64,000 bases of DNA from Pseudomonas mediterranea CFBP 5447. GTDB taxonomy: Bacteria > Pseudomonadota > Gammaproteobacteria > Pseudomonadales > Pseudomonadaceae. This document shows, piece by piece, positions 31,117-34,030 of this stretch (positions are counted from its first letter, which is position 1; each line of letters begins with the position of its first letter). A model generated the notes under the pieces. The model did not search any database. It saw nothing but the letters and a program-made list of their open reading frames with translations, and was not told where the DNA came from. Made by a program: the position numbers and the translations under genes. The stretch covers positions 209,910 through 273,909 of the forward strand of contig NZ_KN322985.1 in assembly GCF_000774145.1 (NCBI RefSeq). Reading direction: 5' to 3'.

Positions 31117-31292
31117 CGCTGGCTAGTGGCCTGTGTGGCTAATTCGTTTACTCAACTTCGGCGCCAGGACTTGCCAGGCTGCGTTGCCATTCCTTGCCGT
31201 AGCGGGGCTACGACTCGTCGTGGCGCCTTGCCTGGCAGGCCCTGGCACTCGAATTTGAGTACTCGAATTAACCGTACAGGCCACCAGCGATG
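31117..31292. repeat. Long imperfect palindrome (about 65-base arms)
   Basis: The left arm from about 31117 (TCGCTGGCTAGTGGCCTGTG onward) matches the reverse complement of the right arm ending near 31292 (TCGCTGGTGGCCTGTACGGT) for about 65 bases, with a few mismatches and one three-base gap. The loop contains a second small hairpin (CGTAGCGGGGCTACG). No coding content is credible. It could be a non-autonomous mobile repeat or a large RNA hairpin. It marks the left side of the accessory islet. Confidence 0.7.
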
Positions 31293-31623
31293 CGACCGAT
31301 TTTGAAGTCTGTAAATCCTGTGGGAAATAACTGTCTATGTTGAAGGAGTCAGCGCTCGCTGGGCCGAGAAACAAACCAAACCCTGCTAACCCGTATCACC
31401 AGACATAGCGCAACAGCCGGTTTTAGTGGGCTTGCATCACGAAGCGCGGGGGAACCACTCGCCAGGATATCCACCTGAGCTTCCTACAGCCTGGTTGCGG
31501 CTACCAAAATCACTGCCTAAAGTTGGCCTGTCGCTGACATCAGTTGGCGAAGGGTTTCGCAGCCCTTAAGATTGATACCTTGTTCGCCATGTACGGCCGG
31601 CTTTCGGTTGCGCATCGTTTCAT
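31293..31623. other. Non-coding stretch between palindrome and leader RNA
   Basis: I find no convincing gene in this AT-richer stretch. A small hairpin AAGGG/CCCTT lies near 31552-31569. The promoter of the downstream structured leader should lie here, but I cannot point to a clear -35/-10 pair. Confidence 0.4.
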
Positions 31624-31760
31624 GGCGGTTGTGCGTGGGAGACCTTCGGGTCTGCCGGGTCTTGGTGTTAATCCTCCGGTCTGCGAACCCGCGCATAACT
31701 GCCACCCATCCTGTTTCGCAGCAGAACGGTGGCAATCCAATTTTTATCAGGATTAACACC
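31624..31760 (+). promoter_or_regulatory. Structured 5' leader with SD-sequestering pseudoknot
   Basis: GGCGGTTGTGCGTGGG (31624-31639) pairs over all 16 positions, counting G-U pairs, with CCCGCGCATAACTGCC (31688-31703). Inside are a UUCG hairpin (AGACC/GGTCT, 31640-31653) and a second hairpin closed by CCGG/CCGG (31655-31679). The loop of that second hairpin holds GGTGTTAATCC (31664-31674), the exact reverse complement of GGATTAACACC at 31750-31760, which contains the ribosome-binding site and ends at the ATG at 31761. A further GCCACC/GGTGGC hairpin lies at 31701-31733. The arrangement predicts translational control by a loop-SD pseudoknot. Confidence 0.7.
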
Positions 31761-32051
31761 ATGACAACTCAACCCCCGCTCAACCACTTCACCCCCATGT
31801 CTCACTTCGCCACCGAACATCCCATCCTTCTCATTGATGCCAATGCCCCACTGACTGAACTCCACAGCTGCCTGAACGAACGTCTCGAAGCCGTCCTCAA
31901 GTATCTCAGCCTCATGGCCTGCACCACCCTGCCCGACTATGCCGAAAACGACGTAAATACAGTCACCAACATTGCTCGGATTCTGGTTCAGGATGTGAGC
32001 GATGTGTTTCGGGTAATTGAGGTACGGGGGTTGGAGGCATCTGAGGGATAG
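31761..32051 (+). CDS. Small protein of unknown function behind a structured leader
   Basis: The 96-residue protein begins MTTQPPLNHFTPMSHFATEH and is soluble, with a probable helical pair (LTELHSCLNERLEAVLKYLS and VTNIARILVQDVSDVFRVIE). No signal, membrane segment or catalytic motif is seen. In size and layout it recalls the small Pseudomonas proteins grouped as DUF3077/DUF6124, but I cannot confirm that. The ATG at 31761 has AGGA eight bases upstream, inside the sequence masked by the leader loop; longer upstream in-frame starts would run through the leader and are not used. A terminator follows directly, so it is monocistronic. Confidence 0.65.
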   Translation: MTTQPPLNHFTPMSHFATEHPILLIDANAPLTELHSCLNERLEAVLKYLSLMACTTLPDYAENDVNTVTNIARILVQDVSDVFRVIEVRGLEASEG

Positions 32052-32345: not shown

Positions 32346-33461
32346 ATGAAAATTGAATACCTCGAGATCGAAGGCTTCAAGAGCGCGGTAAACATAGTCC
32401 TGCGGGATGTGCCGCCCTTTACAGCTCTAGCCGGCTCGAACGGTGCAGGTAAGAGCAACATTACTGACGCGCTGGCCTTTCTGGGGGCGGTAGTGAAGCG
32501 AGGAGCTGCCCAGGCAATACGTGACTTTGGGGGATTCCAGCAGATTCACTGCTTCAAGCATAGGAAGGAAAAACGAACGACAATCTCCTTTGCACTCAGG
32601 ATAAAGCTCAAAGAAGAGTTGTTCGACTACAGCTTGAAAATATCCGGAATAGATCGGGTACCTCAAGTACTTGAAAGCTTGAAGGTCAACGGCAAACAAG
32701 TCATTGACCGCAAGACTAGCAACGAAACGCAGATTGCTTTAAGTGACGCCCAGGGTCTGCAGCTCTTGCCTGAATACGCACAGGACATGACTGCGCTCAT
32801 GCTGCTCAGCCATTCGCCGCTGTATCGCATGCTCACCAATATCCAAGTATTCCGGATCGATCCGCTAGAAGCCAAGGAACCTGACAACTCAACAGCAGAC
32901 GCTACGACACTCGATAGTCACGGTCGAAACGTGGCAACCATGTTGTCAGTTCTGGAGAAAAACGAACGCTTTCGTGACCAGGTACTGGAATGGATCGAGT
33001 TGATAGTTCCGGGAATGGAGAATGTCTCTACCGAGAAGCAAAGGTTGGATGGCTCAACGGTGATTACCTTCAAGGAAGAAGGAACAAAAGCTCGGTTCCC
33101 GGCACGGCTGATTTCTGACGGTACGATTTATGCCCTGTGCATCATGACCGCTGTATTAAGCCGTGCAGACAAATCAGGCATCACAATCATAGAGGAGCCG
33201 GAACGAGGCATTCATCCGAAAGCTATCGGTGAGCTGGTCCAGTTGATGCGTGAAAATGCGTCCGTGGAGCACCCGGTTCTCATCACCACCCATAGCGAAT
33301 CCGTTGTCCGGAATCTTGACCTTGAAGAACTGTGGCTCGTGAATAAAGAGGATGGCAAGACCAAGGTCAAATGCGCTTCGGACTCAAGGGTCGATAAAAA
33401 AGATATCCCGCTGGACACCGCCTGGCTGGCCAATCTTTTTGATGGAGGCCTGCCATGGTAA
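32346..33461 (+). CDS. ABC/OLD-type AAA ATPase, putative defence ATPase
   Basis: The 371-residue protein is an SMC/Rad50/OLD-like ATPase: N-terminal IEGFKSAVN, Walker A GSNGAGKS (30-37), signature-like LISDGT (256-260), Walker B ITIIEEPERGIHP (279-291, with acidic pair E283/E284) and H-loop TTHS (314-317). The domain between Walker A and signature (about 45-250) would be the dimer or lid insert. It has no TOPRIM domain itself; that is encoded by the next gene, which it overlaps by seven bases. It is more A+T-rich than flanking genes, suggesting transfer. GAGGA precedes the ATG. Probably the sensor/motor of an anti-phage pair, by analogy to OLD and PARIS systems. Confidence 0.8.
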   Translation: MKIEYLEIEGFKSAVNIVLRDVPPFTALAGSNGAGKSNITDALAFLGAVVKRGAAQAIRDFGGFQQIHCFKHRKEKRTTISFALRIKLKEELFDYSLKISGIDRVPQVLESLKVNGKQVIDRKTSNETQIALSDAQGLQLLPEYAQDMTALMLLSHSPLYRMLTNIQVFRIDPLEAKEPDNSTADATTLDSHGRNVATMLSVLEKNERFRDQVLEWIELIVPGMENVSTEKQRLDGSTVITFKEEGTKARFPARLISDGTIYALCIMTAVLSRADKSGITIIEEPERGIHPKAIGELVQLMRENASVEHPVLITTHSESVVRNLDLEELWLVNKEDGKTKVKCASDSRVDKKDIPLDTAWLANLFDGGLPW

Positions 33462-34030
33462 AAGTTGGATTCATCGTTGAAGGCGACAGCGAAAAAATCG
33501 TTATCGAATCCGCTGACTTCAGAGCGCTTCTGCTGGAAAACGACTTTGAACTGGTCAATCCCGTGGTCAATGCCAAGGGAGGCGGTAATCTTTTACCGCA
33601 AAACATCGACGCCTATCTGGCGCGCCTGGATCAGCAAGCAGTGGACAGAATCGTTGTGCTTACTGATCTCGAAGATGAAGAATCGGTTGATGTAGTCAGA
33701 GAGCGCATCTCAAACGATCGAATAGATATCACATTTGTCGCTGTAAAAGCATTGGAAGGATGGTTCCTGGCTGACTCAAGTGCAATACGCAAATGGCTTG
33801 ACGTCCATCACTTCGATGAGCCTCAACCCGAGCAGACACTGAACAAGCCCTGGGACCGCCTCAAAGAAATATCAAATGAGCTTGGCAAACGCGGTCCGGG
33901 CAACAAGACCGCGTTTGCAAAGAAGATGGTCAAGCACTATGGCTTCAGCATTCGTCAAGCCGCCTCGCACCCAGGGTGCCCAAGTGCGAAGGAACTTGTC
34001 AGCTATTTCACGAGGCAAGGACAAGCCTAA
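33455..34030 (+). CDS. TOPRIM-like DUF4276 protein, putative effector of the ATPase
   Basis: The 191-residue protein begins MVKVGFIVEGDSEKIVIES, with the TOPRIM-type glutamate E9 in FIVEG, an acidic cluster TDLEDEE (D71-E76) at the place of the TOPRIM DxD, and ALEGWFLAD (E101) as seen in DUF4276 proteins. The C-terminal part is basic (GKRGPGNKTAFAKKMVKHYG), suited to nucleic-acid binding. TOPRIM partners of OLD-type ATPases are nucleases or modifiers; here the acidic cluster is D-x-E-D rather than a clean DxD, so activity is uncertain. The gene is translationally coupled to the ATPase and ends 52 bases from the converging DUF2802 gene. Confidence 0.75.
   Translation: MVKVGFIVEGDSEKIVIESADFRALLLENDFELVNPVVNAKGGGNLLPQNIDAYLARLDQQAVDRIVVLTDLEDEESVDVVRERISNDRIDITFVAVKALEGWFLADSSAIRKWLDVHHFDEPQPEQTLNKPWDRLKEISNELGKRGPGNKTAFAKKMVKHYGFSIRQAASHPGCPSAKELVSYFTRQGQA

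Follow-up and report, generated by a model that had tools for sequence, protein, structure and literature searches.

In phages P1 and P7, RNase P is reported to process the C4 RNA, which acts at the ribosome-binding region of its target mRNA (PMC5320573). The P1 record AF234172 lists promoters, a1, b1, c4, a2, b2 and the start of icd in this order. It served as our positive control. The C4 junction of P1, CTGTCAA, is complementary to the annotated a1 and a2 alike, and the P3 loop contains the exact complement of b2; for the annotated b1, no exact 8-nt match was found. Weinberg et al. (2010) described the c4 antisense RNA in Proteobacteria and phages and the c4-a1b1 element in Gammaproteobacteria and phages (PMC2864571); Pseudomonas copy numbers, target genes and codes are not given in the accessible text of that study.

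In a single bacterium, Acinetobacter baumannii AB5075, the sRNAs of Group 1 comprise 21 related RNAs with a C4-like structure in all those shown but three and a variable specificity loop (Weiss et al., 2016; PMC5320573). The Acinetobacter RNAs display an RNase P-like processing pattern, with the C4 part covered by far more reads and GGW as the usual start, and the accessible part of that report leaves their targets open. The P4-type CI RNA with seqA and seqC, and Gifsy-1 IsrK with STnc1160, are likewise processed RNAs flanked by complementary sites (PMC4825925). In titles and abstract beginnings of the open-licence literature we found no description of a Pseudomonas C4 array or of its targets.

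The leader contains a C4 antisense RNA

The window analysed here is a 64,000-nucleotide stretch of Pseudomonas mediterranea CFBP 5447 DNA. Upstream of a small ORF, the segment 31618-31709 on the plus strand matched the Rfam covariance model of the C4 antisense RNA (RF01695) over the full model (1-87; 75.9 bits, gathering score 45). Across the window, no family except C4 reached its gathering score. A riboswitch was set aside, as no known cis-regulatory Rfam family was matched. A first-pass annotation of this DNA had proposed an undescribed regulatory RNA class. That proposal is ruled out by the RF01695 match, and P1 itself has the order a1-b1-c4-a2-b2-icd. Judged by its covariance model match, the structured leader represents a chromosomal version of the phage P1 C4 antisense RNA and belongs to a known RNA family.

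The structural elements described in the first-pass annotation were largely borne out. All positions of the 16-position helix it had drawn between 31624-31639 and 31688-31703, noting that G-U pairs were needed to close it, are paired, 13 by Watson-Crick and three by G-U pairs, and its UUCG hairpin and second hairpin are the C4 helices P2 and P3. The GG at 31624 coincides with the expected 5' end of a putative processed C4, for which the family would predict a length of about 77 nt. The leader folded at -59.3 kcal/mol against a mean of -43.1 kcal/mol for dinucleotide shuffles (z -4.0), and was more stable than 199 of the 200.

Compensating changes, expected of a conserved RNA, were evident among relatives of the cassette. 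Fifty of the 65 loci of the window family were aligned; L158, L164, L169 and L174 are left out of the 61 assessable loci, and the C4 of L167 was recognized by eye. In the 51 aligned window-family leaders (50 distinct), the 27 C4 pairs were standard pairs in all 1350 cells, and seven of them changed on both sides, a number reached in 1 of 500 shuffles. In helix P1, four of the 17 pairs changed on both sides and pairing was 100%. The covariation score was 0.207, as compared with 0.150 for shuffled alignments and no more than 0.084 when partners were slid. Pair types in the C4 helices were no more numerous than in shuffles (320/500).

A third hairpin, competing with the base of the main helix, had also been proposed. 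It is present as a 7-bp alternative, but its conservation among copies is slight. Counting Watson-Crick pairs in own versus swapped combinations, we found 5.21 and 5.00 bp in the P. mediterranea genome (750/5000 permutations), 6.70 and 6.21 bp at loci of the genus (24/5000), 5.70 and 5.33 bp in three further genomes (81/5000), and 5.78 and 4.95 bp outside the genus (18/5000). When G-U pairs were allowed, the counts were 11, 3, 110 and 1 of 5000 for the own genome, the genus, the three genomes and the loci outside the genus, respectively. With an own-copy advantage this slight and variable among sets, the hairpin was rejected as a conserved switch.

P4 CI works at the level of transcription termination, and IsrK, an activator, is provided with a terminator of its own (PMC4825925); in contrast, no terminator specific to the a1b1-C4 interval was found in Pseudomonas. 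The 35 nt preceding C4 folded at -8.72 as compared with -5.80 for mononucleotide shuffles, but the 35 nt preceding those reached -8.86 (n = 87). An IsrK-like terminator between a1b1 and C4 is thus unsupported, the fold being no stronger than that of the 35 nt further 5'.

Organization of the cassette

The order of elements in the window is predicted promoter, a1, candidate b1, C4, a2, b2 over the ribosome-binding site (RBS), and ORF (Table 1). We labelled the a and b elements after phage P1, a' being the junction and b' the P3 loop. The fold and the order of sites are those of the P1/P7 c4-icd/ant operon (immI; RF01695, RF03163). As in that operon, a' lies in this junction, b2 covers the RBS, and C4 shares its transcript with both targets.

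Table 1. Elements of the C4 cassette, in window coordinates
Feature	Position	Strand	Basis or remark
Predicted promoter: TTGCGG (31495-31500), 16-nt spacer, CTAAAG (31517-31522)	31495-31522	+	read from sequence
a1 hairpin AGGGTTTCGCAGCCCT; a1 is 31556-31562 (TTCGCAG)	31551-31566	+	7 bp Watson-Crick to a'
Candidate b1 GATTGATACC	31570-31579	+	10 consecutive pairs to b' loop, 2 of them G-U; weak
C4 helix P1, 17 bp	31623-31639 with 31688-31704	+	covariance model alignment
Putative mature C4	about 31624-31706	+	ends inferred from P1 misc_RNA
C4 helix P2, UUCG tetraloop at 31645-31648	31640-31653	+	covariance model alignment, covariation
C4 helix P3, loop contains b' (31664-31675)	31654-31680	+	covariance model alignment, covariation
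a' (CTGCGAA), junction of P3 and the P1 3' strand	31681-31687	+	7 bp Watson-Crick to a1 and a2
Alternative hairpin, a2 in loop, 7 bp	31700-31706 with 31728-31734	+	exclusive with base of P1
a2 (TTCGCAG)	31715-31721	+	complement of a'
b2, ribosome-binding region AGGATTAACACC	31749-31760	+	exact complement of b'; covaries with loop in relatives
ORF behind leader, 96 aa	31761-32051	+	no Pfam or NCBIfam family

The first-pass annotation had noted exact reverse complementarity between the loop at 31664-31674 and 31750-31760. This match in fact extends to 13 bp, 31663-31675 with 31749-31761, and its last pair involves the A of the ATG. Paired in this way, the loop would cover the RBS, in agreement with that annotation. 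The second contact, of a' with a1 and a2, was absent from that annotation and is the more constant of the two. Upstream, the c4-a1b1 model (RF03163) matched 31517-31570 with 19.2 bits, below its threshold of 46.7, and this sub-threshold match begins at the same CTA as the CTAAAG of the predicted promoter. Pairing of the candidate b1 with b' was equalled in 24 of 2000 mononucleotide shuffles. Further upstream, at 31150-31270, a possible imperfect inverted repeat surrounds a TGCCAGG core, as judged by eye.

A two-part code, apparently matched within most C4 copies

In the P. mediterranea genome (6.3 Mb, 30 contigs), at least 29 C4 matches lay over the cut-off, the best 150 of 2126 candidates having been scored. 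The a' element can form at least 7 Watson-Crick pairs with the upstream leader (a1) in 29/29 copies and, downstream (a2), at least 7 bp in 27/29, the exceptions being L014, with 6 bp, and L018, in which the cassette is interrupted by an insertion. L018 was left out of the downstream and combined tests in this genome and included in the permutation tests within and outside the genus. The b' loop paired with its own RBS over a mean of 7.57 bp, against 4.04 bp with those of other cassettes (28 copies), and with its own upstream region over 6.21 bp, against 4.38 bp for others (29 copies); neither value was reached in 10,000 permutations, and both codes, a and b, exceeded 10,000/10,000 permutations in this genome. 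In four of the 28 copies (L012, L015, L019 and L028) the pairing of b' with the RBS was 5 bp Watson-Crick or less. Among eight cassettes of this genome that were scanned, five had a c4-a1b1 match over the RF03163 cut-off upstream of C4.

How far these codes separate the copies depends on which is considered. There are 14 different 8-nt a' regions among the 29 copies, and one code is common to up to five of them; therefore a' alone singles out the own target as strictly best in 6/28 cases by Watson-Crick pairing. By duplex energy of a', the own target was best in 5/28. With b' alone (Watson-Crick), it was strictly best in 20/28. When the helix lengths at the two sites were summed, which is a simple sum of lengths and not an energy, the own target was strictly best for 25 of the 28 C4s; conversely, 27 of the 28 targets were matched strictly best by their own C4. 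At least 7 bp at both sites were found in 19/28 own pairs and in 0/756 cross pairs, and at least 6 bp at both sites in 24/28 and 4/756, respectively.

The same two codes were detected elsewhere. Both exceeded 5000/5000 permutations in 30 loci of the genus, which are the top-scoring match per genome and hence a non-random sample that includes several nearly identical loci, and in 18 loci outside the genus (17 genomes); these counts include the mis-parsed loops of L066, L085, L102 and L108 as well as L091, which is below the C4 cut-off, and L041 and L052 are counted in two groups. In three further genomes with at least 10, 11 and 9 copies, a' held in all three, and the own value for b' with the RBS was reached in 3, 0 and 0 of 5000 permutations. 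The upstream b1 was not above permutation in two of them (G007, 1408/5000; G015, 1097/5000) and was marginal in the third (G003, 47/5000). At the sequence level, most Pseudomonas C4 copies appear to be matched by a two-part base-pairing code with the start of the small gene that adjoins them.

In the P. mediterranea genome, the motif CTACAACTACGCCAGAATCCGCC, allowing three mismatches or fewer, occurred in 19 places, 17 of them upstream of C4 cassettes; a reversed-pattern control gave none. It starts 143-158 nt before C4 in these 17 cassettes, the window's not being among them. The remaining sites are at L175, with an N in the contig nearby, and at L176, where there is no C4 among the own-genome matches.

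Divergence of the C4 block within the window family

Searches with the window protein found 65 relatives, all titled Pseudomonas. Across the leaders of this family a' is invariant, while b' and the RBS change together. The check proposed in the first-pass annotation, that loop and ribosome-binding sequences should vary together and stay complementary, came out in favor of the pairing: in 45 distinct loop/RBS pairs, the longest Watson-Crick helix averaged 7.56 bp for own and 4.52 bp for swapped partners, and with one pair per distinct loop (29) the values were 7.28 and 4.49 bp, none of 10,000 permutations reaching the own value in either case. In 8 of the 45 distinct pairs, b' and the RBS share a helix of 5 bp Watson-Crick or less.

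Ten of the 61 assessable relatives (L114, L115, L116, L118, L126, L127, L128, L135, L138 and L149) keep the a1 hairpin and a full-length ORF and lack C4 by eye. Two of them, L116 and L128, were scanned with Rfam, and C4 was below the cut-off. Some of the C4-less cassettes seem, by eye, to hold C4-like remnants.

The tandem neighbors L012 and L028 are 87-100% identical per 30 nt over promoter and ORF (77% in the last bin), and 53-80% identical over the stretch that begins some 60 nt upstream of C4 and ends at the a2 region. Between L012 and L028, the divergence of the C4 stem is similar to that of the keys. L006 and L017 show a less clean version of this block divergence. Thirty-two pairs of paralogues from the own genome, chosen at a protein identity of at least 0.72, had mean identities of 0.78 for the ORF DNA, 0.73 for the C4 stem, 0.74 for a' and 0.68 for the loop. 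The loop and a' values are close to that of the stem; therefore the keys are not clearly set apart from it, and the idea that they change faster than the rest was dropped. The entire C4 block differs between close paralogues, through replacement or divergence.

Genes behind C4

The first-pass annotation had mentioned similar leaders in front of DUF3077- and DUF6124-type genes, and such a recurrence was found in the own genome and in others. A DUF6124-type ORF lies directly 3' of C4 in 23 of the 29 own-genome copies, as detected with a profile derived from 15 of these ORFs. Positions from a Pfam search agree, giving the same 23 genes and L018, in which a 340-codon ORF, which we take to be IS110-like, stands between C4 and the DUF6124 gene and splits the cassette. 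DUF6124 occurs 28 times in this genome, 24 times behind C4 when L018 is counted; upstream of the four genes without C4, c4-a1b1 was over the cut-off in two, weak in one and absent in one. On two C4-less cassettes, c4-a1b1 matches overlap sub-threshold isrK matches. One DUF6124 gene without C4 (L063) adjoins a PrrF RNA (161.2 bits). In other genomes the ORF behind C4 may code for DUF3077 (L035 type, E 1.8e-30), Bro-N, a KKLVPDPP protein or a 52-residue protein.

The ORF of the window stands apart, its product matching no Pfam, NCBIfam or PHROG family (best PHROG E 0.17). Its structural model consists of two helices (mean pLDDT 71.8), and in a fold search none of 227 PDB matches reached E 0.001. 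By profile comparison, DUF6124 joins the KKLVPDPP group (97%), whereas the window family compared with DUF6124 at a probability of 0.2 and was not joined to the KKLVPDPP group either, so that one family for all target proteins was rejected.

The window cassette is preceded by an FlhB-like gene and followed by an AAA and DUF4276 pair (HEC-01). We recognized no icd/ant-type or phage genes at the window ORF or among the adjoining genes tested. The AAA ATPase and DUF4276 genes, at 32346-34030, matched PADLOC HEC-01A over its full length with 610.7 bits and HEC-01B with 303 bits, making the pair directly behind the cassette a candidate defense system.

Distribution of C4

At least one C4 match was present in 138 of 149 Pseudomonas genomes, the own genome included (137 over the cut-off), and 11 had none. 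With the best 27 candidates scored in each, the median was at least 13 copies per genome, and 34 genomes had at least 27. In a class-wide draw, 17 of 273 non-Pseudomonas genomes carried C4, with at least 1-6 copies each among the best 15 candidates per genome; in an order-wide draw that overlaps it, 19 of 144 other genomes had at least 1-6 among the best 28. Since few genomes other than those of Pseudomonas carry C4, the expansion appears Pseudomonas-specific, as far as these draws show. One genome of 1.5 Mb outside the genus holds four C4 matches within 1.4 kb (G409:C9:1700-3092).

Proposed mechanism and alternative explanations

The leader is very probably a chromosomal C4 cassette of the P1 c4-icd/ant design, whose C4 would be cut out and, acting in trans, prevent the cassette it comes from being translated. 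One promoter would give rise to one transcript carrying a1/b1, C4, a2/b2 over the RBS and the small ORF. Cleavage, probably by RNase P, would free C4 from this leader, and on other transcripts made from that locus a' may pair with a2 and b' with b2, such that translation is blocked. Possibly, a1/b1 represents a second binding site able to take up C4. Family membership, covariation, the cassette order, the match of codes within a copy and the separation by the combined code can be read from the sequence itself; release and repression in trans we infer because of the homology with P1 and the match at two sites. As copies differ in how their a and b codes are combined, dozens of cassettes per cell would be largely insulated. 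It is, in our view, an evenly balanced question whether Pseudomonas carries dozens of paralogous lock-and-key C4 cassettes that act as immunity groups of the P1 style, largely insulated and numbering up to about 30 per cell. In that lock-and-key reading, for which the case seems to us equally strong either way, the codes of C4, of the upstream site and of the RBS site would change together over expanding families of small proteins.

Complementarity alone would fit action in trans and in cis alike. In a cis-acting switch of the kind inferred in the first-pass annotation, the C4 fold of the intact leader could pair with its own RBS as a pseudoknot that is opened by a ligand, a protein or an RNA, and the partners do lie on one transcript, about 75 nt apart, with a 13-bp helix between b' and the RBS; moreover, Gifsy-1 IsrK combines cis alternatives with a short trans RNA (PMC4825925). 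Yet an upstream a1, and a weak b1, would be needless for a lock acting only in cis, the sole family above its cut-off is C4 and no riboswitch, and in P1/P7, C4 reportedly acts on a target mRNA after being processed (PMC5320573). We consider such a cis switch quite unlikely.

Two other possibilities are compatible with trans repression of the own cassette. One is that chromosomal C4s serve as decoys that silence C4-controlled genes of incoming phages, as suggested for Acinetobacter (PMC5320573); C4 is a phage immunity RNA, and a Bro-N gene stands behind some Pseudomonas C4s. Against this, the C4 copies match their own downstream gene, and a single DUF6124 query had a match in 1 of 50,697 phage records and in none of 72,556 plasmids. 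In an exact IMG/VR scan, the two-part target of the window, the only code scanned, was found in one place, on a contig with no Rfam match, which by our estimate is about what chance would give; a phage target of this code was accordingly rejected, and the decoy role appears distinctly improbable. The other is that the cassettes form a set resembling type I toxin-antitoxin systems, in which small toxic proteins are silenced by their own C4. Small ORFs, private antisense RNAs and many copies would be in keeping with this, as would the inhibition of cell division by P1 icd (PMC8198154), whereas full-length ORFs persist without C4 at 10/61 loci of the window family and at 4/28 own DUF6124 loci. 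The two-helix model of the window protein, with no confident PDB match, is neutral in this respect, and overall we regard a toxin-antitoxin role as unlikely.

Under the preferred reading, with C4 acting in trans on its own cassette, the Pseudomonas cassettes differ from the P1/P7 operon in being chromosomal, present in tens per genome and provided with different codes. Their targets differ from icd/ant as well, being mostly DUF6124 genes in the own genome and a 96-aa ORF in the window. Unlike the C4-like RNAs of AB5075, those of Pseudomonas have a likely target that can be read from the sequence, the next gene, by means of two matched codes, and the function of a chromosomal C4 thereby becomes directly testable. 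DUF6124 and DUF3077 proteins, which one paper of the open-licence literature searched mentions, as a resequencing hit, may constitute a set under likely RNA control. The Pseudomonas C4 cassettes would also represent a natural library of seemingly insulated antisense RNA pairs.
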